From an uncultured bacterium (GTDB lineage: Bacteria; Hydrothermota; Hydrothermia; UBA1063; CAJXJZ01), in contig CAJXJZ010000003.1 of the NCBI GenBank assembly GCA_913055745.1, forward strand, positions 70,664-107,442: 36,779 bases of DNA. Reading direction: 5' to 3'. This document shows, in pieces, positions 16,075-35,030 of this stretch. The notes beneath the pieces were generated by a model, which saw nothing but the letters and a program-made list of their open reading frames with translations, did no database searches and was not told the DNA's origin. Both the position numbers and the translations under genes were made by a program. The number at the start of each line of letters is the position of its first letter. Position 1 is the first letter of the stretch.

Positions 16075-16359
16075 ATGGAGGAGAAGAAAAAAGAGATTTT
16101 AAAAGTTGATACAATGCTCAGGGTATTTATTGGAGAACTTACCTTGAAAGGTTGGGCTTACCTTGGTGTTATCTCACACCCCGAAACAGAAGAGATAGAG
16201 TCTGACATTGAGCAAGCGAAATTGGCTATTGATGCGATAGAAAAACTTATGGAACTTGGTAAAAGCTTTCTAAGTGAGAAGGAGATAAAAGAAATGCAAC
16301 TCTCCCTCTCCAACCTGAAGCTCAATTATGTAAGTAAAAAGAATGAAAAAAATAAATGA
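16075..16359 (+). CDS. DUF1844 family small protein
   Basis: A 94-residue cytoplasmic protein. The central part, with ALGV-like WAYLGVISHPETEE followed by DIEQAKLAIDAIEKLMELGKSFLS, matches the DUF1844 pattern (helix, short proline loop, then the IDxLExL helix and a final helix). The function of this family is unknown. ATG 16075 has no usable ribosome binding site and lies at the predicted transcript start. The next in-frame Met is residue 14, which would remove part of the first helix. It overlaps the next gene by 17 bases. Confidence 0.75.
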   Translation: MEEKKKEILKVDTMLRVFIGELTLKGWAYLGVISHPETEEIESDIEQAKLAIDAIEKLMELGKSFLSEKEIKEMQLSLSNLKLNYVSKKNEKNK

Positions 16360-18499
16360 GGCCGTTCATAATGTAATATCTGCATTAGAACATAACCTAA
16401 AACGGCACTCTGTTCTCAAACTCCTCGTTATTGCATATTCATTTACACTTATTAGAAACTTCCTTGAATCTTCCTTTGAGGAGGCAGCACGCATAGGGTT
16501 TTCAACAGAGCCCTTTACATCTTCTATTGCATACTTCTACCATTATCCCCTTTACTATTTTGATGTTTACTTTTTCGTTGCTATTATACTTAGTATAAGT
16601 AAAGCCTACAAATACAAAGACGCATTGAAATTTAGTCTATTCTTCGCCTTCTGGGTTATATTGGCACCGTTCTTTGATCTCTTTTTAGGCGGTCATTTTG
16701 ATATAAACTACATCATGAGTTCAAAAGAGTTCCTATTTTATTTTCTCAACGCTTTAAACCCATTTGTAAAGGCCCCTGGTATTACATGGGGTATAAGGAT
16801 AGAATCTGCTCTTGCAATCATAGGTCTTTTCATTGTACTTACCTACAAAAATAAAAAAGTTCTTCTAAATCTTTTGCTTATGTTTGCCCTTTATGTATTT
16901 TTGTTGCTCACAGGAGGCACTCTTCAAGCCCTCTATGCTGAAATATTTGGCTATTCTTTTGACCAGGCCTTTAATTCACCAGGCCTTATATTTTATCCTT
17001 CACTCAGAATGGGTGTATTTCTTTTTATAATACTTGTCATTGAGGTAATTTTTGGGCTTTTTCTATCCTCTCCAAAAAGATTTAAAAAATACATAACTTT
17101 AATAAGATGGGAGAGAATACTTTTTTATTTATCGGTTGTTACCATGGGCTTTTTAATAGGGCTCAAAGCCATGGCATTTGGTTATCCCCTTGTATTCAGG
17201 AATCCTACAGATTATCTTGCCATTATATCACTTATAGGACACACCTTCTTTGGCTTTCTATTTGGACTTACAATAAATGACTATTACGATAGAAAAGGAG
17301 ATATTCTTTCAGGGCAAAAAACACCAATAACTCTAAGAATTATAAGGAAACAGCAAGTACCATATCTCGCATTGTTTTTCCTTATAAGTTCACTTGTATT
17401 CGCCTTTTCTATAAGTTATTATACCTTCCTCATAGCGCTATGTGCCCTTACTCTAAGTTATATATACTCAGCACCTCCTTTCCGCCTTAAAAAATACTGG
17501 CCCATATCCACATATACTATTACGACCATAGCATTTTTAGAAACATTAGTTGGGGTCTCTGTTTTTGCAAGATACGCCTCTGTGAATATACTTCCAAAAG
17601 AGGTCTTCTATGTATTCTTTTTGATATTACCCCTTGCCTTTGGTACCAAGGATTTGAAAGATTACAAAGGAGATAAAGAAACAGGTATATTCACCATCTT
17701 TACATATCTTGGTCTTGAAAAGGGATGTATTGTAAATGCTATACTTGTCTTTATTGCTTTTATGCTTGTCCCTTTGGTATACGGAAACCGCGTCTTCCTT
17801 TTATCATTTATCTTAGGTTTACCCGTCTCGCTCTATATTGCACTTTATCCAAAGATGAAACAGCCGAGGCCAAGAGAAATAATATTTTTCTCAGTACTTA
17901 TTTTCTATATCCTCTATATGGCTAAGGTTACTGTAGATAAGGTCAAACAACCAGTAAACCTACCAAAGCTAATGAAGGAACTCAACATAAAGGAATATGC
18001 CCTCTACCCTTCAAATTACAACGAGGAAAGACTTATATTTGACGCACTTATGAATAGAAAAGACAGTTTAACCTATATACTCCAAGCTAAAAACTATGTA
18101 AACAATAAACCAATCCTCTCATTCTATTACCTTTACAAATTCCTTGAGGTAATGAAAAAGAAACAAAACCCCGAGTTTTTTGACCCAACATTATATTTTG
18201 ATCTTAAGAAAAAGGCATTGGAACAACTCATTGAGGCAGATAGTTTAGATCTGGCCATTTCCTTTGCCATAGAAGGACTTTCCAGAGGGGTAATGTCAGA
18301 GGACTTCTACTCATTACTTGGCGAGATCCTTATGGAAGAGGATAGGTATGAAGGTGCACTATTGGCACTGAAAGGTGCCTATTTTTTACTACCCTCAGCC
18401 CGTACTGCCAAGGACCTTGCACTAACCTATAAAGAACTTGGATATCAAGACAGTTTTATTAAGTACTTTGGCGAATATCTAAAATATAGACCCAAATAA
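16343..18499 (+). CDS. Long UbiA-superfamily prenyltransferase with N-terminal membrane and C-terminal TPR-like extensions
   Basis: A 718-residue integral membrane protein. The UbiA core lies at about residues 255-530, with both Asp-rich motifs: NDYYDRKGD (312-320) and DLKDYKGD (437-444), plus YSAPPFRLKK near 375-384. Such enzymes transfer prenyl chains to aromatic or glycerol acceptors in quinone or lipid synthesis. Before the core are about 250 residues with roughly six hydrophobic helices of no family I recognise. After it are about 180 soluble residues with TPR-like helix pairs (for example DSLDLAISFAIEGL and DRYEGALLALKGAYFLLP). Typical UbiA proteins have about 290 residues, so this is a three-part protein. 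ATG 16343 overlaps the DUF1844 gene. The substrate is not predictable. Confidence 0.8.
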   Translation: MKKINEAVHNVISALEHNLKRHSVLKLLVIAYSFTLIRNFLESSFEEAARIGFSTEPFTSSIAYFYHYPLYYFDVYFFVAIILSISKAYKYKDALKFSLFFAFWVILAPFFDLFLGGHFDINYIMSSKEFLFYFLNALNPFVKAPGITWGIRIESALAIIGLFIVLTYKNKKVLLNLLLMFALYVFLLLTGGTLQALYAEIFGYSFDQAFNSPGLIFYPSLRMGVFLFIILVIEVIFGLFLSSPKRFKKYITLIRWERILFYLSVVTMGFLIGLKAMAFGYPLVFRNPTDYLAIISLIGHTFFGFLFGLTINDYYDRKGDILSGQKTPITLRIIRKQQVPYLALFFLISSLVFAFSISYYTFLIALCALTLSYIYSAPPFRLKKYWPISTYTITTIAFLETLVGVSVFARYASVNILPKEVFYVFFLILPLAFGTKDLKDYKGDKETGIFTIFTYLGLEKGCIVNAILVFIAFMLVPLVYGNRVFLLSFILGLPVSLYIALYPKMKQPRPREIIFFSVLIFYILYMAKVTVDKVKQPVNLPKLMKELNIKEYALYPSNYNEERLIFDALMNRKDSLTYILQAKNYVNNKPILSFYYLYKFLEVMKKKQNPEFFDPTLYFDLKKKALEQLIEADSLDLAISFAIEGLSRGVMSEDFYSLLGEILMEEDRYEGALLALKGAYFLLPSARTAKDLALTYKELGYQDSFIKYFGEYLKYRPK

Positions 18500-18500
18500 A

Positions 18501-18523
18501 AAAAGGGGCATACTGCCCCTTTT
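18501..18523. terminator. Bidirectional intrinsic terminator
   Basis: AAAAGGGGCA (18501-18510) pairs with TGCCCCTTTT (18514-18523) around a three-base loop, giving A/T tracts on both sides. It lies between the convergent ends of the UbiA gene (18499) and the last TadE gene (18550), so it can stop transcription from both. Confidence 0.85.
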
Positions 18524-20664: not shown

Positions 20665-22017
20665 CTATCTTTGCTCATTACTACCTTCTCCCATCCAGTT
20701 GTGTTGTTCGTCTTTGGGATCATTTTGTGGAATAAGTTCAGCGTAATGTGCCATTCCAGATTGAGAACCCATACCCAATGCGTTCATTGACATACCACTT
20801 ACCTGATCAGGCCTATAATCTGGAACTCTATCCTCCCAACTAAAATGGTACCAGTCATCTTTTATATTCCAATAATCCGAGTAGTATGTTGCTGTGGCAT
20901 ATGACTCCGGTAATAAGGCAAGAGCCCATACAGCATTGTAAAAATTCCAGTAATTTCTTTTATTACTCCACATCCCACCACCTGCATGGGCATACACATA
21001 GTGCCGCACAGGAGTAAACTCACTTTTAGCACACCATATACAATGATGATGCCAGCCGTATACAGGGTGAGTACAAATTTCATGAGACTGGGCCCAGTAA
21101 AATGCCCCATCATCTTTTGACCATGCTCCTCCCATATCTGGGGTCCAAGAATTGGCGTAGTACTGTCCACCCCAACCAGTTGAACAACTCGGCCCAAATC
21201 TGTCCCAAGCAATGGGTGGTTTAGGAGAAGTTCCATAGCCCCAATAGTCTATCCTATCTTTTCCGTGCATAAAGCCTGTGTATTTTCTGGAAAGCCACTC
21301 ATCTTCTCCCCTACCAACTGGTGTGAAGCCAAACATCATATATGCATCAATCGCCTTCCTTGTATCTCTATCAAGATAGGCATACCACCAGAGCATCCCC
21401 ATCAAATTTAATTTAGCCGCTTCTAAAAAGGAGACGCCACCTACATTGACCTTTTCTGGATACCACTGCTTCATAAGAAAGCTTGAAAGCCCAGCACCAC
21501 TTGTACTCGTAACAACACCTTCTACCTTCGCCATTCCATTTCTAAAATCATTGTCAAATCCCTTTATTGCAGGCTCCCCATCATGAGTAGTTTGCCCTTT
21601 CCACTCATATGGAATATCTCTTGGATTAGAGTCTCCCATCTGAAAAGGAGCGACTGCTCTACTTACAAGGAAACTGTCCCATGGGACAAGCGCTACCGAC
21701 TTACTAACGTCATGTTCTATAGCAAGAAAATATACGCCAGAGGTATCATCCTGTTGTATTTCTTTCCTAACCGAGTTTTTTGTAACATTTCTGTAAAGGG
21801 TATGATATTCATCAAGGTGCTGACTTACTATGCTTGTATCAGGGGAATGCACCATCATAATCCTTGCGGTGTTATATGCGAGGAAGTTCATCTCAATCTG
21901 CCTTACAAAATATCTGGCAAAATCAAGTGTACCAAATAGTATAACGAGAATTATGGGGAGCGATATAACGGCTTCTACCAACATCTGCCCCTTCTTTTTA
22001 TCTTTTTCTTTTAACAT
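20665..22017 (-). CDS. tadE: Very large TadE-like minor pilin with His/Cys cluster
   Basis: A 450-residue protein with a TadE N terminus: KKKG then QMLVEAVISLPIILVILFG, with Glu at +5 after the predicted Gly10 cleavage site. This is more than twice the usual length. The roughly 400-residue exported domain is very rich in Trp and Tyr and holds a compact cluster CTHPVYGWHHHCIWC (residues 315-329, three Cys and four His), plus Cys278. This could bind metal or form disulfides. GAGGGGGTGATAGC sets ATG 22017, directly after flp3. The aromatic content suggests binding to carbohydrate or another surface, that is, a tip adhesin, but this is inference. Confidence 0.82.
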   Translation of the reverse strand: MLKEKDKKKGQMLVEAVISLPIILVILFGTLDFARYFVRQIEMNFLAYNTARIMMVHSPDTSIVSQHLDEYHTLYRNVTKNSVRKEIQQDDTSGVYFLAIEHDVSKSVALVPWDSFLVSRAVAPFQMGDSNPRDIPYEWKGQTTHDGEPAIKGFDNDFRNGMAKVEGVVTSTSGAGLSSFLMKQWYPEKVNVGGVSFLEAAKLNLMGMLWWYAYLDRDTRKAIDAYMMFGFTPVGRGEDEWLSRKYTGFMHGKDRIDYWGYGTSPKPPIAWDRFGPSCSTGWGGQYYANSWTPDMGGAWSKDDGAFYWAQSHEICTHPVYGWHHHCIWCAKSEFTPVRHYVYAHAGGGMWSNKRNYWNFYNAVWALALLPESYATATYYSDYWNIKDDWYHFSWEDRVPDYRPDQVSGMSMNALGMGSQSGMAHYAELIPQNDPKDEQHNWMGEGSNEQR

Positions 22018-22029
22018 GCTATCACCCCC

Positions 22030-22188
22030 TCACCACCAAAGATATTGCCAAAAAATCTTAAGCATTACTATATGTAACCTTATAGCAAGCCAGTAAATGG
22101 CAATAATAGCAACAAGTGAAATAAGACCTATTGTCATTGCGTACTCAACTGCACTTGCTCCTTCTTCATTTAAAATAAACCCTTTCAT
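22030..22188 (-). CDS. flp: Flp-type pilin (third copy, 52 residues)
   Basis: A 52-residue Flp pilin. Its start MKGFILNEEG is followed by the processing site G/ASAVEYAMT (Glu +5, Tyr +6) and a hydrophobic helix (IGLISLVAIIAIYWLAI), then a short tail ending in QYLWW. AGGAGGTGGATT precedes ATG 22188. It stops at 22030, 12 bases before the tadE start. It is shorter than most automatic length cutoffs and so easily missed. The aromatic, basic tail (LKIFWQYLWW) is unlike flp1, so it may be a minor or specialised pilin. Confidence 0.9.
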   Translation of the reverse strand: MKGFILNEEGASAVEYAMTIGLISLVAIIAIYWLAIRLHIVMLKIFWQYLWW

Positions 22189-22516: not shown

Positions 22517-24268
22517 TTATTTTATCGACACACTGTAGTATAGACTATCCTCCACGAAAAATTTCCATTTATCAATCAAGTTGTGAATATCATGATTTGT
22601 TACTTCTTTGTAGGTTTTACGAAAATCAAGGTTTGATATACTTTTTTCCATGAGTTTTAACACGCAACCTCTATCTAATTTATCAGCCAACTTTACCATT
22701 AAATAACTGAGTTCTATACCTTTTTGGGGATGACTTGCCCTCATGGGGTTCTCATAAAAGGAAACAACATCACTTTTTTTCAAAGATAGTACTTCCTCTA
22801 AGTTAACTCTGCAATTATCTCCACACACTAAAAATTTTGGCACTCCAAGAGAAAACCAGAGTGGAAGTTGTTTTTCCTCAACGCTATATCTCCTTATAAA
22901 ATCGCTTACAAGAAACCTGGCATATGCATTTTTAAGTTCTTTGAGAATTACATTTTCTTTTTTAAACTCATATGCGGGCACCCAATAAGTATGTACAGGG
23001 GAGACAGTATTTTTAAACGAATCTGCAAGCCATAGAGGCACCAACAAAACTGTATAATGGGGTTTGTAAAAGAAACCTACAGAATCTAACCAGAGAGAAA
23101 ACCTTTGCGAAATATCTCGGCCGTTCTTATAAAGGGACGAGATAACATAGGTTATGTTTCTCTCCTTATCTCTTATAATCCTTATAGTATCTCTTCTTTT
23201 CTTTATGTCATTGTAGTTTTTTATTATAAACTTTCCAACAGTGGGGAAAAGAGAATCTATTGGCATATTCATAAATCTATATATATGTTTTCTGTAGAAT
23301 ATTCCTATATCACCTTTATTTTTCACAATTTTTTCTTCATCTGGTGTAAGTGAAAATAATGCATTATAAATTTCCTTCTTACTCAGGCCTCTATTTTTGC
23401 TAAGATAATTCACAAACATATAACCCAATGGACCTGACATAGGTTTATAAAACACTATATTTTCTATAATACTTTTTCCAAGCATGCTAAAACTACCTGT
23501 GCTTATCTCTGATTTAACCCAATCACCATAGTCAATGCCAAAACTCTTATGGTGCCCATAATAAAAGTGATATATGCCCTCAACAAAGGGATATAAATAC
23601 TTGTTTTTATCTAAAAGAGCATGCATTAAAGATACCGTATCCAAAGGTTTTTGGGAAATACAAAGCCCATCGGTATAAAATGGTTCGGGCTCACCCGTGG
23701 TACTGCCTGAAAATAATGATTCTGGTGAAATTTGAGGCGTATACACATACATCAGTTTTCTATGGCAACAGTTTTTACAATTAGAGCACAAAGCCCTCTT
23801 AAATCTCACAAGGCGCTTAAAATGAAATTCTGCACTGTCATAAGATACTTGAATGGGATAAAAATATATTATATCCCCATTAGATATGTTTTTAAAACCA
23901 TTATTTAAGTAGTAGGCCAAAGGAACATGCCACTTACCTTTGTATGGAATAAGACCAATAGAAAAATTCTCCTTCCAAGGGAAGATAACATTAAACTTAT
24001 AAAGTGGCACATTCTGCTTAAAAGATACAAGACTCACAACCAACTTATAGTGTAATTTTTCAATGTCTTTAATTTGGGGTATGGAGTACTTTTCCATTAA
24101 TTTAAGGGATAGTGTATCAATATACTTGCCAAGTATAAGTGTATCCCTTAAAAGGAGTGCATCCACAAATTCAGTGCCGGGTATATTATAAGGAGTTTTT
24201 CTATGACAACTAAGAAGTGTTATAATTAAAAAAAAAGTTAATAATAATCTTCTTTTAGCGATTTTCAT
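22517..24268 (-). CDS. Lipoprotein with degenerate MA-type peptidase domain and Cys cluster
   Basis: A 583-residue lipoprotein: signal MKIAKRRLLLTFFLIITLLSC with lipobox Cys21. The middle has a tight CSNCKNCCH cluster (161-169) and Cys203, possibly a metal or disulfide site. The last 180 residues follow the layout of the peptidase MA-like (gluzincin) domain: LPLWFSLGVPKFL (468-480) where active members have LPxWLxEG, and GIELSYLMVKLADKL...LDFRKTYKEVTNHDIHNLIDKW at the end. The HExxH zinc site is replaced by KELKN (443-447) and the Glu of WLxEG is lost, so it should be catalytically dead. A TTG at 24283 extends the frame but lies in a hairpin loop; ATG 24268 gives the clean signal peptide though it lacks a binding site. 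The domain call is from pattern only. Confidence 0.6.
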   Translation of the reverse strand: MKIAKRRLLLTFFLIITLLSCHRKTPYNIPGTEFVDALLLRDTLILGKYIDTLSLKLMEKYSIPQIKDIEKLHYKLVVSLVSFKQNVPLYKFNVIFPWKENFSIGLIPYKGKWHVPLAYYLNNGFKNISNGDIIYFYPIQVSYDSAEFHFKRLVRFKRALCSNCKNCCHRKLMYVYTPQISPESLFSGSTTGEPEPFYTDGLCISQKPLDTVSLMHALLDKNKYLYPFVEGIYHFYYGHHKSFGIDYGDWVKSEISTGSFSMLGKSIIENIVFYKPMSGPLGYMFVNYLSKNRGLSKKEIYNALFSLTPDEEKIVKNKGDIGIFYRKHIYRFMNMPIDSLFPTVGKFIIKNYNDIKKRRDTIRIIRDKERNITYVISSLYKNGRDISQRFSLWLDSVGFFYKPHYTVLLVPLWLADSFKNTVSPVHTYWVPAYEFKKENVILKELKNAYARFLVSDFIRRYSVEEKQLPLWFSLGVPKFLVCGDNCRVNLEEVLSLKKSDVVSFYENPMRASHPQKGIELSYLMVKLADKLDRGCVLKLMEKSISNLDFRKTYKEVTNHDIHNLIDKWKFFVEDSLYYSVSIK

Positions 24269-24275
24269 AATAAAA

Positions 24276-24292
24276 GGGGGCAAAAAGCCCCC
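24276..24292 (-). terminator. Hairpin between the Cache/SpoIIE-like gene and the lipoprotein gene
   Basis: On the minus strand GGGGGC (24292-24287), loop TTTTT, GCCCCC (24281-24276), then TTTTATT. It starts three bases after the stop of the 24296 gene and ends seven bases before the lipoprotein ATG. The interrupted T tract suggests partial termination, so the lipoprotein may be expressed by read-through at a lower level, or the hairpin may protect or block translation. Confidence 0.6.
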
Positions 24293-25636: not shown

Positions 25637-27964
25637 TTACCTTTTAAATAAAAGATGTTGAATTTCTGGATCCGGATTAAATATTTCATTTGGCAATTTA
25701 ATGCCCCTATATTTAATTTCTTCAAGGGCCATAGGCCTTACCCCTGTAGCAGAGAACTTACCTAATACCTTGCCCTTATCATCATATCCTGTTTGTCTGA
25801 ATACAAATATGTCTTGCATTGTTATCATGTCTCCCTCCATACCAGTAATTTCTGATATAGAGACAACCTTCCTGCTTCCATCTCTCATTCTTGCAAGTTG
25901 CACAACAATATGAATAGCAGATGATATCTGCTGGCGTATTACTCTATCAGGAAGTTCCATCCCAGCCATCATGATCATGGTCTCCAATCTTGAGAGCGCA
26001 TCCCGAGTGCTATTAGCGTGAACTGTAGTCATGGAACCTTCATGGCCTGTATTCATTGCCTGCAACATGTCAAGGGCTTCAGGTCCACGACATTCTCCAA
26101 CGATTATCCTATCCGGTCTCATACGAAGCGTATTAATAACAAGGTCTCTAATTGTTACCTCACCTTTACCTTCAATATTTGGTGGCCTTGCTTCAAGTCT
26201 TACTACATGTTCTTGTTGTAACTGTAATTCTGCCGTATCTTCAACCGTAATAATACGTTCATCATTGGGAATATACCCTGAAAGAAGATTAAGAAATGTT
26301 GTCTTACCACTTCCTGTACCTCCTGAAATTAATATGTTTCTCTTTGCAATAACAACGGCTCTTAAAAATTCAAGTATCTCCTTTGTAACTGAACCCAAAG
26401 CAATAAGGTCTTCTGCTTGAAGTTTTTTCTTTGAGAACTTTCTTATGGTAACAGTAGGACCATTGAGTGCAAGAGGTGGTATAATCACATTTACACGTGA
26501 ACCATCAGGCAATCTGGCATCAGCGTATGGCATTGCTTCATCTACCCTCTTTCCAAGGGGAGAGAGAATTCTATCAATTATTACTAACAATTGATCTTCA
26601 TTCAAAAATTTTGCATCTGTTTTATAAATCTTTCCCTTCCTTTCTATATATATATCAAAGGGCCCATTCACCATAATCTCTGTTATATCTGGGTCTTTAA
26701 GGAGTGGCTCAAGTGGACCATAACCAAGTGCTTCATCAAGTATTTCCTGGACAAATCTCTTTCTATCACTAACATCGGTTATATTTATGTGCAATCTCTC
26801 CATGAGTTCTATAATCATAGACTCCACACGATTTCTAAGTTGCTCTCTACCTTTCTCATCTTTGAATACGCTCTGAACCTCAGACCAGTTAACCTCAACC
26901 ATCAAGGCACGGTGAATATCCTCCTTCCATTTATGCCACTGTTTTTCCTCAACTTGAAACTCCTCTTCTTCTACTTCTGCGCCTGCAAGGGTAGAGATTG
27001 TACTATCTACTTCCATAGGACCTCCGTCCTTAGGTACATTGGGGGTTGAGGATGCTGCGACATTATCTTCAGTCATAAGTTGAAGCGCTTCTTCCAAGGC
27101 CGAATCAAGATCAGTTGAAGAAGACGCCTTTTTCTTCGGTTCTTCTTTCTTTTTAGATTTTCCACCACCAAATAGAGAAAACTTCTTTTTCTTTTCACCT
27201 TTCAACTCTCTTATAAGGTCTTCTTCTGTAACTTCCCCTCTAATATAGGCAACCAACTTCTGTAAATTCTTTGTTGTTTGACTGCCACTATCCAATTCTA
27301 CATAAGGTACTCCTCTATCAAGCGCCTCCACAGCTTTCTCTCCGGCATATGGTATTTCAAGAAGAACCTTATAAGGATTAGAGAGTTTAATAATATCTTG
27401 AGTATCTATCGTAGAAACTTCATGAGTATGGTTTACAATGATTTTAACTTTTTCAGGTGGAAAGTACTGATGCTTTAAAATAGAAATCTTACCCTGAAAT
27501 GCATTAAAAGAATGCAGGTCATTGGAAAGTATAAATAGCACTTCATCTGTAAGTTCCAAGAGTTGAGCACTCAGAGGATTTAATTGATTTATTCCATCGA
27601 AAATAACGTACGAAAAATCAAAAGAGTGCAACATAGAAATAAAAGACATAATGGAGGCAGGGGTGACATTCACAAGTTTCCTGCGTGGTACTGGAGGAGA
27701 GGAAATTATCTTGAGTTTATTATTCTTTGGAAAAACACTAATATAATCTCCTAATTCAGGCTTTTCTCCTTTCTCTAATTCTTCCAATAAATTAGCAATA
27801 TCACCCTTTACATTAACATTTAGCGCCATAGCAATGTCTGCACGCTCAAGCTGCATATCTACAAGTACAATAGGCTGTTTTAATGCAATTAACACTCCCA
27901 CATTGGAGACTAAGAAAGTAGACCCAACTCCACCTTTACTCTGAAAAAATGCTATTTTCTTCAT
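25637..27964 (-). CDS. cpaF: TadZ/CpaE-like ATPase fused to CpaF/TadA secretion ATPase
   Basis: A 775-residue fusion in one uninterrupted frame. Residues 1-245 are a MinD/ParA-like ATPase of the CpaE/TadZ type: SKGGVGST (9-16, with the signature Lys10 and Ser in place of the second Lys, as usual in CpaE), [14 protein letters not shown] with Asp36, and VIFDGIN. There is no N-terminal receiver domain. Residues 250-345 are a Lys-rich then acidic linker. Residues 346-775 are CpaF/Tad[22 protein letters not shown], Walker A GGTGSGKT (548-555), EDTAELQL, Walker [16 protein letters not shown], and [13 protein letters not shown]. The ATPase drives Flp pilus assembly and TadZ places the machine at the pole. 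The fusion would fix them in 1:1 ratio. It is followed at four bases' distance upstream by the secretin gene. Confidence 0.93.
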
Positions 27965-27968
27965 AATA

Positions 27969-29354
27969 TCACATTTTCTTTACATTTTTGATAATATGTA
28001 GAACATTTTCATACTTGTCCCACATAATCTCGAGATTACTAAATATTTGTTTAAACACCTTTAATTCTACCATTAAATTACCAAAATAGTTTTCGACATA
28101 AATCTCATTGAGTTGCTGACCAACAAGCATAGACTGGGTATCATAGTTAATCCGTATTTTCTGTCCCTTATACTTAAACTGTATTTCATTCTCTCCTTTC
28201 TTGACCCTGCATCCAAGTAGTTTTGCAAGTTCACCAATTGGAACAAGTACAGTCTCCTCACGAAGGAGAAGAGGAAGTTCATAGGACTTTGATTCATACT
28301 TATCCCATATATAGACCATCGATTTGGATTTTGGCAAAATTACTGGAGTAACAAGGAATATAATCTCTGATTCTTCCTTAGTTGCTGTCTTTATACTAAA
28401 CAAAGATCCCAGAATAGGTATAGAAGAGAGGATAGGTATACCAGTCTTTTTATAACTTGTCTTAGAATTAATAAGTCCACCAAGACCCACTGTTTCACCT
28501 GAGCGAACCCTTACACTCGCATCAACGCTTTTTCGCCTTATGGCAGGTACTGTATACCCCTGTATCTGAACGGCATTTGCCCAGTCAAGTTCACTAACAT
28601 CAGGCTTGATGGAGAGATTAATATAGTTCTTAAGATCAATAGATGGGGTTATTTTAAGATTTACCCCATATTCTTTCCATTCTACCGCCACCTGCCCCAG
28701 ACCTGCAGGAATAGTCACAGGGAACTCACCACCGACAAAGAAGTTTGCGCTCTTGCCCTCCAGCGTAATAAGTGTGGGAGAAGATAGTATCCGAGCCTTT
28801 CCATTCTCCACAAGTGCCCTAAGTGTCATAGTTATAGGACTCTGTCTTTTTATTGGACCTACCTCAGTAAGCCCGGGTATGGGGATAGGGTCTTCTTGCA
28901 AATTCAGAGCATCCACCCATTGAACACCAAGGTCATTATGCGAGCTTTTATTCATCTCTATTACATATACCTTAACGCCAATGGTCCTCTTCCCCTGAGT
29001 TAAGATACTCTGGGGGTCTATCTTAATATTAAATTCAGATTCAAGGCCGTCTCTTGTCTTGACTATTAAATTTGTTGCACCACTCTTCTTAGGGACGAGA
29101 AGAAGTTCATCCGGTGATATTATATCAACGGTAACGAGATCTTCATCGCCTATTATGGCCCTTTTGAGCATCGGGATCTTCATAACATGAGAAAAACCTT
29201 CAACGAGACGTATAGTAGGGAGAGGGGCTTCCTCGCCCACCAAAGGCGTAGTCTCAGCAGTCCCGGTTTGTTCTACTCCCTCACTTATTTGAGGAATTCC
29301 CTCTTCAGGCAATTGAGACACCAATAGTCCCATTACTAACAGTATACTTATCAT
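27969..29354 (-). CDS. cpaC: Tad secretin CpaC/RcpA with C-terminal copper-amine-oxidase-N-like domain
   Basis: Outer-membrane pore for the Flp pilus, 461 residues. A signal peptide (1-13) is followed by the CpaC N-terminal domain (RLVEGFSHVMKIPMLKRAIIGDEDLVTV, with the LLVPKKSGATNLIV motif) and the secretin core: RALVENGKARILSSPTL near 179-195, VGGEFPVTIP, and the signature VRSGETVGLGGLI...PILGSLF (283-319), ending with IIFLVTPVI. The BON domain of some CpaC proteins is not seen. After the core, residues 358-455 form two half-repeats (REETVLVPIGELAKLLGCRV... and NLMVELKVFKQIFSN LEIMWDKYENVLHI) like the copper-amine-oxidase N-terminal/stalk-type domain found in many envelope proteins. The start lies within the end of the previous gene (four-base overlap). 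Confidence 0.92.
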   Translation of the reverse strand: MISILLVMGLLVSQLPEEGIPQISEGVEQTGTAETTPLVGEEAPLPTIRLVEGFSHVMKIPMLKRAIIGDEDLVTVDIISPDELLLVPKKSGATNLIVKTRDGLESEFNIKIDPQSILTQGKRTIGVKVYVIEMNKSSHNDLGVQWVDALNLQEDPIPIPGLTEVGPIKRQSPITMTLRALVENGKARILSSPTLITLEGKSANFFVGGEFPVTIPAGLGQVAVEWKEYGVNLKITPSIDLKNYINLSIKPDVSELDWANAVQIQGYTVPAIRRKSVDASVRVRSGETVGLGGLINSKTSYKKTGIPILSSIPILGSLFSIKTATKEESEIIFLVTPVILPKSKSMVYIWDKYESKSYELPLLLREETVLVPIGELAKLLGCRVKKGENEIQFKYKGQKIRINYDTQSMLVGQQLNEIYVENYFGNLMVELKVFKQIFSNLEIMWDKYENVLHIIKNVKKM

Positions 29355-30962: not shown

Positions 30963-31892
30963 TCATTGATTCGGCCTAATGTTGTAAAGATAATTAAGTA
31001 AGATGGTGCCAAATATAACGAGAAAAATGGTAGGCAGAATCAAAAGAATCATAGGAAAGGTAATTTTAACAGGAGCCTTCTGCGCTTTTTCCTCGGCATT
31101 TTCCCATCTTTTGTTTCGTAAGTCATCTGCAACTGAACTTAACGTCTGTGAAATAGGTACACCAAGTTTTTCACCATACATTAACATGGATACCATTCTC
31201 TTTAAATCTTTATGTCCAGTTCTCTCTCCTATCCTCGCAAGCGCTTCCATTCTGGGAGAGCCAAGAAAGATTTCTTGAAGTGCTATTTCAAATTCATCCT
31301 TAATGGGGCCCTCTTTAAATCTTTTTGTGGTGAACTGAAATGCAGCGTTAGGCGCGAGCCCTGCCTTAACACTGGTAACAAGTTGATCAAGAAAATCAGG
31401 AAGTTGTTTATCAATCAACTCATGTCTGCGTTTTATTGCACTACTCAATGTAAAATCGGGGAGGAAAAAGCCCAGTAATCCGACAATTATACCCAAAATT
31501 ACAGACTTACCTAAAGGCTGTTTAAAAATCACATTAATTACAAGCGCACCAAGAATACCCAGAAAAACGAGACCTCCAAATTTCTGAGCAATAAACCTCC
31601 CCACTGATGTATCGTATTCTCCTGCCATGATTAACTTCTTCTCAATTGAGTCAAAGTACTTCGTAGGTAGTATATTTTTAAAAATTGGTTGAAACTTTTG
31701 CGATATAAAGAAGCCAACCCTTTCTGTAAAGCTCTCCATCTCAAAAGAAACAGCCTCACGTCTACGCAACGCAGTTCTCGCTCTCATTCTTTCAATTCTT
31801 TTCCTAACATCCACCTGGGTCTCTGATGGGATTAAGGCCAGCACTAAAAACATGATAAATCCAACGATACTTATAAATAGTAAGAATAGCAT
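30963..31892 (-). CDS. tadC: Tad inner-membrane platform protein TadC
   Basis: A 309-residue inner-membrane protein of the T2SSF/GspF family, Tad branch. Membrane segments are at about residues 3-23, 105-125, 130-150 and 280-305. The cytoplasmic F domain has the TadC motif LPDFLDQLVTSVKAGLAPNAA and the EIFLGSPRMEALARIGERTG and MYGEKLGVPISQTL segments. It forms the pilus platform with TadB, and is homologous to PilC in this same window. Overlap with the next gene is avoided if that gene starts at 30943. AGGTGAGGTGAT precedes ATG 31892. Confidence 0.94.
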   Translation of the reverse strand: MLFLLFISIVGFIMFLVLALIPSETQVDVRKRIERMRARTALRRREAVSFEMESFTERVGFFISQKFQPIFKNILPTKYFDSIEKKLIMAGEYDTSVGRFIAQKFGGLVFLGILGALVINVIFKQPLGKSVILGIIVGLLGFFLPDFTLSSAIKRRHELIDKQLPDFLDQLVTSVKAGLAPNAAFQFTTKRFKEGPIKDEFEIALQEIFLGSPRMEALARIGERTGHKDLKRMVSMLMYGEKLGVPISQTLSSVADDLRNKRWENAEEKAQKAPVKITFPMILLILPTIFLVIFGTILLNYLYNIRPNQ

Positions 31893-31905
31893 ATTATCAC
31901 CTCAC

Positions 31906-32754
31906 CTAATATTCAATTGTTATTATCTTCTTAATCCAGATAAATGCTATCACTATGAGAATAAAACATACTCCATTAATAAGTAATCCAAGCGGAGTTG
32001 ATATCATAGGACGGAAAAGGTCTCTCTGAGTAAGCCAAAGCATAAACTCAATGAAGAAGGGAAGCGCTGTTATCACATACGCAGAAAGCCTGCCCTCCGC
32101 TGTTAATGCCTGAATTCTTCTCTTAAGTTTCCTTCTAAGAGTGATAGTTTCAGCCACATGATTCAAAACCTCAGAAAGATTACCACCAGTTTGTAACTGT
32201 ATAACTACTGCCGAAGTAAAGGTTTTAAGACTTTCACTCTCAGGCACCTCCTCTTCAAGTTTTTTAAATGAATCTTTAAGTGTTCCACCCAGCCTAACAT
32301 CCCTTAGCATAGCCCTTATCTTATCTCTAAACGGGGGTTCTATCTGGTCAGCCACCAACTCAAGGCCTTGCATAAAACCAAGCCCTGCCTTGAGTGAGTT
32401 AGCCAAAAGATGTGTTGCATCTTCAAGTTGTCCTTCAAACAAGTCCAACCACTTTTCTCTCATGTTGTTCAAAAATGCACGAATACCAAAATAAGCAACA
32501 CCCTCAAGGAAAACCAGCATAATTATCTTATTGAGAATTGGACCAAAAGCCAAATAAACGAATACTGCAATTACTCCATAAACCAGAAGTTTGAAGTAGA
32601 AAATTTGTTCTTTTGTTTTAAAGAACAAAATATTTCCGGCCGGCGTTCCTGCTTCTTTCTTAACAACACCCGACAAGGACTGGAGCACTAAATAAACGAT
32701 TATAGCCCCTGTAAGGGAAGCCATAATAGCAACAACAAGGAGCATGCCATTCAT
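31906..32754 (-). CDS. tadB: Tad inner-membrane platform protein TadB
   Basis: A 282-residue T2SSF-family inner-membrane protein. Segments at about 3-25, 52-92 and two near the C terminus (228-278) bracket the cytoplasmic F domain with LEDATHLLANSLKAGLGFMQGLELVADQ and GGNLSEVLNHVAETITLRRKLKRRIQALTAEGRLSAYVI, a strong TadB signature. It works with TadC and the CpaF motor to add Flp pilins. AGAGGAGAGGTAAA before ATG 32754 decides the start. Thirteen bases separate it from tadC and 19 from cpaB, as in one operon. Confidence 0.94.
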   Translation of the reverse strand: MNGMLLVVAIMASLTGAIIVYLVLQSLSGVVKKEAGTPAGNILFFKTKEQIFYFKLLVYGVIAVFVYLAFGPILNKIIMLVFLEGVAYFGIRAFLNNMREKWLDLFEGQLEDATHLLANSLKAGLGFMQGLELVADQIEPPFRDKIRAMLRDVRLGGTLKDSFKKLEEEVPESESLKTFTSAVVIQLQTGGNLSEVLNHVAETITLRRKLKRRIQALTAEGRLSAYVITALPFFIEFMLWLTQRDLFRPMISTPLGLLINGVCFILIVIAFIWIKKIITIEY

Positions 32755-32773: not shown

Positions 32774-33853
32774 TTACTTTCCACACTTTCCACCAGGACA
32801 ACCAACCTTTTCAAGCAATTGCTTTATTTGATCGGGAGATACACCACCTGCACCTGCTCCTAATTGCATCTTAGAAAGGTTCTGACCGACCTGCTTCATG
32901 ATGGAGTTAATATCAACCCCACCAAGGGCAGAAGATAGACTACTACCACGGGCTGTCCCCTCACTTTTTATTTTATACACAGCACCTGTAGATGTTACCT
33001 TATAAACATCTCGCTTAATTCCACCATGCGAGCCACCATAAACCTCAATATATGTGTGAGTAATCCTTCTCCTGCGATAGGTTTTAAGTCCTAAATACTT
33101 TTTAAGCACATCATATGTATTCACTGCCTTAAGAGGTACATATTCTTTTTCACCTATAGGCTTTGGCACCACATAGAGGGTCGCTATCCTCTGAAGCAAA
33201 AGCAAGTCCTGTGCAGTATCAGGCGATACTGCAAAAGTAATTGTACTCGCACCTCCAGGAGCAGACAACTGCTCAAGTAAACTCTTTTTGCTTGATGAAG
33301 TAGCTGTTGTTACTGGCAATTTTTGTCCAACTGCTATAACAAGCATATTTTCAAATGGAACGATAACAGTGGGCTTTCTTACAACACCTCTCACATATTG
33401 ACTTACAAGGTCAGGTTCAAGCACGGCATAGAGATCAACAATATCTCCAGGTATTATAAGGCCCGCTGCACCTGTTAGCATATTAACATTAATGGTAACC
33501 GTCCTATATCCAGAAGGGATAAGTGCTGAAAGACCTCTAACCTGAGAAATATCAACAACAAAGTCAGACTGAATTTGTGTCCCTGCTTTTATTGGCACCA
33601 AAGACACTTTGCCTACAACGTCTTCTATACTCTTATAAGTTCCAGGCTGCAAGAACGCCCTTGGCACTTTACTGACTTCTACCATGTCTTGAGTAATAAC
33701 ACTACGAGCCGGTATGTCTGTGGCAGAAACTACAACCGTTTCCATCTCAAACCCTTTTAGTTTTCTGCTCTCAATACTCCGCAGATAGCTGATAGTGAAC
33801 ACGCCGGTTAAAACGGCGAAGAATAGCGCTACGAATAACAAACGCTTGTTCAT
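32774..33853 (-). CDS. cpaB: Flp pilus assembly protein CpaB/RcpC
   Basis: A 359-residue periplasmic protein anchored by one N-terminal helix (4-21). The SAF domain follows at about 38-105 (VVVSATDIPARSVITQDMVEVSKVP... VPIKAGTQI), then the RcpC domain with LSALIPSGYRTVTINVN and GLIIPGDIVDLYAV. CpaB/RcpC binds peptidoglycan-side parts and the secretin. The C terminus is extended by a Gly/Ser-rich linker and ends in CPGGKCGK, two Cys five apart, unusual for the family. AAGGAGGGTTTAA before ATG 33853 sets the start. The ATG overlaps the stop of tadV by four bases. Confidence 0.92.
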   Translation of the reverse strand: MNKRLLFVALFFAVLTGVFTISYLRSIESRKLKGFEMETVVVSATDIPARSVITQDMVEVSKVPRAFLQPGTYKSIEDVVGKVSLVPIKAGTQIQSDFVVDISQVRGLSALIPSGYRTVTINVNMLTGAAGLIIPGDIVDLYAVLEPDLVSQYVRGVVRKPTVIVPFENMLVIAVGQKLPVTTATSSSKKSLLEQLSAPGGASTITFAVSPDTAQDLLLLQRIATLYVVPKPIGEKEYVPLKAVNTYDVLKKYLGLKTYRRRRITHTYIEVYGGSHGGIKRDVYKVTSTGAVYKIKSEGTARGSSLSSALGGVDINSIMKQVGQNLSKMQLGAGAGGVSPDQIKQLLEKVGCPGGKCGK

Positions 33854-34452
33854 TTAAACCCTCCTTGTTCTATAATTAAATAAACGCTTATTACTATATT
33901 GGAAAAACCAAGAAAAACGCCATATCTTATTTTATTAAACGTGTTCTTTCTTCTGTTCTCTCCATCTTTCTCCATTTCATTCATAGGTATAAAGACGTTA
34001 TGTGTAATAGCAGATATTTTAAGGGATACAAACGCATTCTTTACCCAAGCCCAAATCACTTGAATAAGATCTTTTAATCCCTTTAGAACGAGCCTGCCAA
34101 TGCCCATTTTCTTCACCAGGGCATAAAGCAAAATTAAAATACCAGCACCCATAAAGGCAAGGAGTAAAAACCTCCCGCCTACAAGTGCGCCTGTAGCCAT
34201 AGCAAACTTAATATCTCCTGCCCCCATCCCACCTGATGCAAAAAATGGGAACATAATGACAAATCCTATCACAATGCCTGCTATGGAAGAAAGTATATGG
34301 TGCTGATACATAGCCATAATTATACCTATCAAAAGTACTGAAAAATTCAGCCAATTATAAATCTTACCATATCTGTAATCAGTGTACAATGCAATAAGGG
34401 AGACGATAGCAACTAATATATAGTTTATTTTATAAGACAGTGTATCCACCAT
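33850..34452 (-). CDS. tadV: Prepilin peptidase TadV/CpaA
   Basis: Aspartic membrane peptidase (A24A family, lacking the methylase domain of PilD) that matures Flp pilins and TadE-like minor pilins. The two active-site motifs are visible: TDYRYGKIYN with Asp25 and GMGAGDIK with Asp80. About five or six helices are predicted. The 200 residues are long because of a cytoplasmic C-terminal part. A GTG at 34473 would extend it by seven residues, but ATG 34452 overlaps the preceding stop (TAATG), pointing to translational coupling. No separate PilD lies in the window. Confidence 0.9.
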   Translation of the reverse strand: MVDTLSYKINYILVAIVSLIALYTDYRYGKIYNWLNFSVLLIGIIMAMYQHHILSSIAGIVIGFVIMFPFFASGGMGAGDIKFAMATGALVGGRFLLLAFMGAGILILLYALVKKMGIGRLVLKGLKDLIQVIWAWVKNAFVSLKISAITHNVFIPMNEMEKDGENRRKNTFNKIRYGVFLGFSNIVISVYLIIEQGGFK

Positions 34453-35030
34453 TATTGTTGAGTAATGTTCCACTTATAATATACCACAGTTGAATGTGGA
34501 ACATCCCATGTTATCTTATTACCTATTTCATCCTCACCCTCAAAATGTACCCTTTCCTGGAATGTAATTACGAGGGAATCAGGAAGGCCATTGAAATAGG
34601 GGAGCAAGGATCTTATGGCATGATCTATAACATCAAAAGAAACTGTATAAAGGTTTGCTGTTGCCTCATCTCCTGGTGGGACAAGGAGATTAAAACCTCC
34701 ATCCAATGGACCAAAGTCAAGTGTATCACCATAATTTGATGTTACAGATACATACTCTATTCTGTAATGCTGTATATCTGCCCATCTGCCTCCATACATC
34801 TCTTTAAAGGTAAATGCAACAGGCTGAGGGACCTCATATTCTACCCGAGACAAACTAAATCTTCCGCTGGTAGTATCATAAGCCACACTTGCCTGTACCA
34901 CTAAACTCTGATTTTCAGGGTCAACCTTTACAAGCCTTACCTCTGCTTTGGGGTAAAAAGGATTGTTATCACAACCTGATAGTACCAAAAACATCCCCAT
35001 CAGAAGAAAGGGAGCAATAAGTCTTTTCAT
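34452..35030 (-). CDS. Lipoprotein at the head of the tad operon
   Basis: A 192-residue lipoprotein of unknown family. Signal MKRLIAPFLLMGMFLVLSGC with a strong lipobox (Cys20). The mature part is beta-rich (VRLVKVDPENQSLVVQASVAYD) without known motifs. It is the first gene of the long tad unit, with AAAGGAGGAG before ATG 35030, and its stop overlaps the tadV start. The position fits an outer-membrane pilotin or secretin-assisting lipoprotein, a role unassigned in this locus. This is inferred from location only. Confidence 0.75.
   Translation of the reverse strand: MKRLIAPFLLMGMFLVLSGCDNNPFYPKAEVRLVKVDPENQSLVVQASVAYDTTSGRFSLSRVEYEVPQPVAFTFKEMYGGRWADIQHYRIEYVSVTSNYGDTLDFGPLDGGFNLLVPPGDEATANLYTVSFDVIDHAIRSLLPYFNGLPDSLVITFQERVHFEGEDEIGNKITWDVPHSTVVYYKWNITQQ

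Follow-up and report, generated by a model that had tools for sequence, protein, structure and literature searches.

Gene content and distribution of the Tad locus

The window, by which we mean the whole stretch of 36,779 nucleotides analysed here, contains a Tad (type IVc) pilus locus with a motor, a secretin, a prepilin peptidase, RcpC, TadB/C and two Flp pilins (Table 1). The assembly genes are those for the prepilin peptidase and RcpC/CpaB, TadC and TadB, a TPR ORF, the secretin and an ATPase in which ParA/MinD and TadA are fused. The pilin operon is ordered as a putative lipoprotein, two Flp pilins, a 450-residue TadE protein, a TadG-like protein, a second TadE and a terminator-like hairpin. 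The gene of the 450-residue TadE therefore shares its pilin operon with the genes of two further large minor pilins. The ORF listed for the TadG-like protein overlaps the TadE gene because its first ATG was taken; relatives align from MSNNRKGVVLVMG, whose ATG lies about 24 codons further downstream, is probably the true start and would abolish the overlap. In the longer of the two listed Flp-type pilins, conservation begins at about MKRLMYNFIANEDGAGAVEYGLL (about 59 aa).

Table 1 Coordinates of the Tad locus features and of the residue clusters discussed in the text
Feature	Position	Strand	Basis or remark
UbiA-domain membrane protein	16343..18499	+	
Terminator-like hairpin past the second TadE, 10 pairs, T-rich tail	18501..18523	-	
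Second TadE-domain minor pilin, 330 aa	18550..19542	-	Domain scan (PF07811, E 1.4e-8)
TadG-like minor pilin, listed ORF 389 aa	19554..20723	-	Domain scan (PF13400, E 8e-8)
TadE-domain minor pilin, 450 aa	20665..22017	-	Domain scan, prepilin site, homologues
Codons of residues 339-344 (HYVYAH)	20986..21003	-	Both His invariant in the genus
Codons of the Cys motif CTHPVYGWHHHCIWC, residues 315-329	21031..21075	-	Per-residue conservation in homologues
Flp-type pilin, 52 aa, site EEG/ASAVEYAMTIGL	22030..22188	-	Below Pfam cut-off, E 1.3e-5
Flp-type pilin, listed 94 aa	22199..22483	-	Below Pfam cut-off, E 3e-4
Putative lipoprotein, first gene of the pilin operon	22517..24283	-	Fast-evolving
Terminator-like hairpin separating assembly genes from pilin genes	24276..24292	-	
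Tad motor, ParA/MinD-like (TadZ/CpaE-type) domain fused to TadA/CpaF ATPase	25637..27964	-	
Secretin (RcpA/CpaC type)	27969..29354	-	Domain scan
TadB and TadC platform proteins, two T2SSF ORFs	30963..32754	-	
RcpC/CpaB (PF16976) and prepilin peptidase (PF01478)	32774..34473	-	

The putative lipoprotein had no Pfam match and is 40-44% identical within the genus, versus 65-89% for the rest of the Tad locus. The fused motor ORF encodes 775 aa, and the same fusion occurs at L010:2012-4336 (88.6% identical) and L026:4310-6484 (724 aa); it is absent from the TadA of G084 (an FHA-TadA) and of G119, the other TadE-bearing genomes in the phylum sample. In its C-terminal part (359-453), the secretin ORF also matched PF07833, the copper amine oxidase N-terminal domain, but weakly and just short of the cut-off (E 7e-5). 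A 718-aa membrane protein with a UbiA prenyltransferase domain and a TPR-like C-terminal part is encoded convergently to the pilin operon, and its gene is kept next to this operon in the genus.

Among 60 related genomes (WOR-3/Caldifarciminota), the family of the 450-residue TadE was found in eight, the source genome included, all of one class. Three homologues belong to genus relatives, at 71, 67 and 39% identity, and the four elsewhere in the class are about 23-27% identical; one of the homologues, that of genome G011, is incomplete, running into a contig end. The TadG-like PF13400 family is present in exactly the same eight genomes and in no others. Across the phylum sample, TadE was detected in 10 of 120 genomes. 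No relative of the 450-residue TadE was found in plasmid and viral collections.

The 450-residue TadE and its Trp-rich head

The TadE ORF starts with ATG and encodes 450 residues without an internal stop, in agreement with the preliminary description of this DNA, which gave no strand; the gene lies on the minus strand. The TadE domain (PF07811) spans residues 10-52 (E 1.7e-9, 38 bits against a cut-off of 22.9) and was matched in all seven family members scanned as well. It is preceded by a prepilin cleavage site, KKKG/QMLVE, in which G10/Q11 is followed by MLVE15 with Glu at +5, and this site together with the adjoining hydrophobic helix (KKKG/QMLVEAVISLPIILVILFG) is the signature of a type III prepilin. 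The prepilin-like N terminus described earlier is thus well founded. Based on conservation blocks, by which the inner boundaries were set, the protein consists of a leader (1-10), a TadE helix (about 11-55), a pilin-like stalk (about 60-120) and a Trp-rich head of roughly 330 residues (about 120-450). TadE was the sole confident domain in Pfam scans of all family members, NCBIfam returned nothing for the protein, and no PDB chain was matched in a sequence search with the family profile. Two AlphaFold models, one for the entire protein and one for its head, made with three sequences each, reached pLDDT values of 29.3 and 29.7 and were discarded.

Residues 46-450 contain 5.2% Trp and 15.6% Trp, Tyr and Phe together, and the 26 other ORFs of the window average 0.7% Trp. 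The aromatic-rich exported head reported for this protein is therefore genuine, and it is common to the class: the protein has 21 Trp residues, other class members have 19-25 where counted, and a Trp-rich head is present in every class member. Moreover, W185, W291 and W364 are invariant in all eight homologues of the realigned set. This invariance and the class-wide richness suggest that the Trp residues probably belong to a conserved fold. Blocks in the middle of the head are 77-87% identical to relatives whose overall identity is 67-71%, which would also fit a conserved folded head. A hypervariable adhesin surface was rejected, as close relatives share 60-87% identity over most of the head. 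Common ancestry of the three minor pilin heads was likewise unsupported, with profile comparison aligning the N-terminal helix only.

The protein had been singled out for its unusual size, which holds against canonical TadE proteins but not within its own lineage, where such a length is ordinary. Indeed, the first TadE of complete loci in the class measures 447-501 aa in all seven complete homologues, so that a large Trp-rich head characterises the lineage. The canonical TadE proteins (PF07811) of G084 and G119 share the TadE helix and the G/QxxxE prepilin site with the 450-residue protein, whereas they have only 216 and at most 242 aa and lack the 330-residue Trp-rich head.

Cysteine and histidine residues of the head

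The preliminary description proposed a metal-binding His/Cys cluster at residues 315-329, and CTHPVYGWHHHCIWC indeed lies exactly there. In shuffles of the head, seven Cys/His within 15 residues were reached in 0.025% of cases, and three of the four Cys fell within 15 residues in 1.3%. Judged from the difference between these values, the rarity of the cluster comes mostly from the His run, which is its non-conserved part. In the realigned set of eight homologues, C315 is present in all and C326 in seven, while C329 occurs in all four genus members and in none of the four homologues outside the genus. C278 is found in three of four genus members, the fourth carrying a Cys two columns off. His323 and His324 are absent in all relatives, His325 varies, and two of the four genus members have another residue in place of His317. 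The GWHHH stretch aligns with DPWGH, GPWG and CDPWGCH in the genus relatives and with TPWG or DPWG in family f4, and PWG stands just ahead of the second Cys position in six of the eight homologues. The His part is therefore private to the 450-residue protein, and the cluster as first described is mostly a species-level feature atop a conserved Cys pair: its Cys positions stood up to the comparison, whereas its His positions, and with them the metal-binding cluster in its proposed form, did not. Further along the head, every genus member has H339 and H344 (10 and 15 positions past C329) and H391, and no homologue outside the genus has any of the three. The number of Cys per protein is even in the genus (4, 4, 4 and 10), and odd counts (5 and 3) occur in family f4. 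A c-type cytochrome or haem site was ruled out, the motif being CIWCA with no CxxCH nearby in the aligned homologues.

One reading of these residues is that disulphides, C315-C326 closing a loop and C329-C278, brace the extracellular fold and no metal is bound. The retention of C315 and C326 well beyond the genus, the PWG ahead of the second position and the even Cys counts in the genus agree with it, as do the many disulphides predicted in published Tad tips; the odd counts in family f4 do not. Enzymes for disulphide formation speak on both sides. Searches for DsbA, VKOR and Thioredoxin_4 in the source genome gave no match, and DsbA and VKOR are both missing from seven of the eight carrier genomes across the class, including the three genus relatives and the relatives of family f4. 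Because of these absences, the default assignment of the cysteines to disulphides is weakened, with unknown oxidases or spontaneous oxidation as possible substitutes. In contrast, G011 encodes both DsbA and VKOR, as neighbours on one contig, and its homologue retains the Cys cluster. On this evidence we hold the bracing disulphides to be a tenable but tentative explanation.

The lack of recognisable DsbA and VKOR in the genus and in family f4 makes reduced cysteines plausible, which would be compatible with the head being a metal-dependent binding or redox module that forms the functional surface of the tip. In this genus, the ligands of zinc or another metal would be C315, C326, C329, H339 and H344, probably with C278. 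The first five occur unchanged in all four genus members, spaced C-x2-C-x9-H-x4-H, and C326-x2-C329-x9-H339-x4-H344 together with C315 is a reasonable candidate for a metal site, composed of other residues than those first proposed. However, the four more distant homologues lack C329, H339 and H344, the eye-catching HHH run is unique to the 450-residue protein, and no metal-binding family was matched in the Pfam scan of family members. We thus regard a metal-dependent head as possible but doubtful.

Comparison with known Tad tips and the proposed place of the protein

In Myxococcus xanthus, models of the three minor pilins KilLMN show a spearhead tip that bears variable domains, and the pilus is abolished when all four tips are deleted; TadEFG of other bacteria were modelled likewise, TadG forming the large backbone (Herrou et al. 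2025, PMC12075869). CpaL of Caulobacter crescentus consists of a pilin module and a vWA domain, and its model places it at the tip alongside CpaJ and CpaK (PMC12607857). Like KilL, KilM and KilN, the present trio comprises three adjacent minor pilins that lie next to a Tad system and are predicted at the tip, and in both sets a lineage-specific C-terminal head follows a pilin-like N terminus. They differ in that the large distal domain of KilLMN is carried by the TadG-type KilN, whereas the largest head here is that of the first TadE-type protein, and no link to predation is known for the present trio. CpaL resembles the 450-residue TadE in fusing a pilin module to a large exported domain and in its placement with two other minor pilins. 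In contrast to CpaL, whose vWA domain holds a MIDAS metal site, the family studied here showed neither a vWA domain (no match in seven members at E 0.1) nor any other known domain in the head.

The 450-residue TadE is a real, conserved and lineage-specific minor pilin of the tip type with an uncharacterised head. The three minor pilin genes are adjacent and co-occur, a pattern looked for in a tip complex, and the families of the 450-residue TadE and the TadG-like protein share exactly the same eight of 60 genomes. By analogy with the KilLMN and CpaJKL tips, we consider it fairly likely that the protein is a tip minor pilin in a TadE/TadG/TadE priming complex, although the published tips place their large modular head on the TadG type rather than on TadE, which counts against this assignment. 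We infer its cleavage, complex formation, tip position and contact role, the tip position by comparison with these precedents. In the mechanism we propose, the prepilin peptidase of the same locus would cut the protein at G10/Q11, its TadE helix would pack with the helices of the TadG-like protein and the second TadE to form a three-pilin priming complex, and the Flp pilins would polymerise on this complex. The complex would stay at the pilus tip, so that the roughly 330-residue Trp-rich head would be carried out through the secretin and be the first part to meet surfaces or other cells. The aromatic residues and the C315-C326 pair would mainly hold the head fold together; C315, C326, C329, H339 and H344 possibly make up a metal site in the genus, or else a reducible Cys loop, and the HHH run would be a species-level addition. 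Of the tip adhesin or metal-binding head suggested at the outset, a Tad minor pilin with a large exported head is retained, probably at the tip as judged from context and precedent. As to the adhesin part, a PDB profile search and Pfam scans of the family revealed no known adhesin domain in the head, which is also not hypervariable.

TadE and TadF have long been described as pseudopilins, and the protein might accordingly work only inside the envelope, in assembly or secretion, with a head that never leaves the cell. That the fastest-evolving protein of the locus is the neighbouring lipoprotein and not the head would suit such a role. However, the tip models and genetic data from Myxococcus and Caulobacter speak for incorporation into the tip, and the head is far bigger than priming alone requires, which makes a purely internal function quite improbable.

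With the tip assignment preferred, the three large minor pilins probably make up the tip of a thin bacterial pilus. The recent concept that Tad tips are customised would thereby extend to the uncultured phylum WOR-3/Caldifarciminota, and the 450-residue protein suggests that a large tip head on a TadE-type pilin is possible. It seems unlikely that the head is all of the following, namely a new, class-specific fold serving as a contact domain on a TadE-type pilin, with a metal or redox site (C315, C326, C329, H339 and H344) acquired in the genus. If true, however, a metal or redox site on the head would make this an unusual metal-bearing pilus tip. The genus and family f4 both retain the gene order flp, TadE, TadG-like, TadE, and in the genomes of family f4 several tandem Flp pilin paralogues follow the minor pilins (L018:12672-13625).
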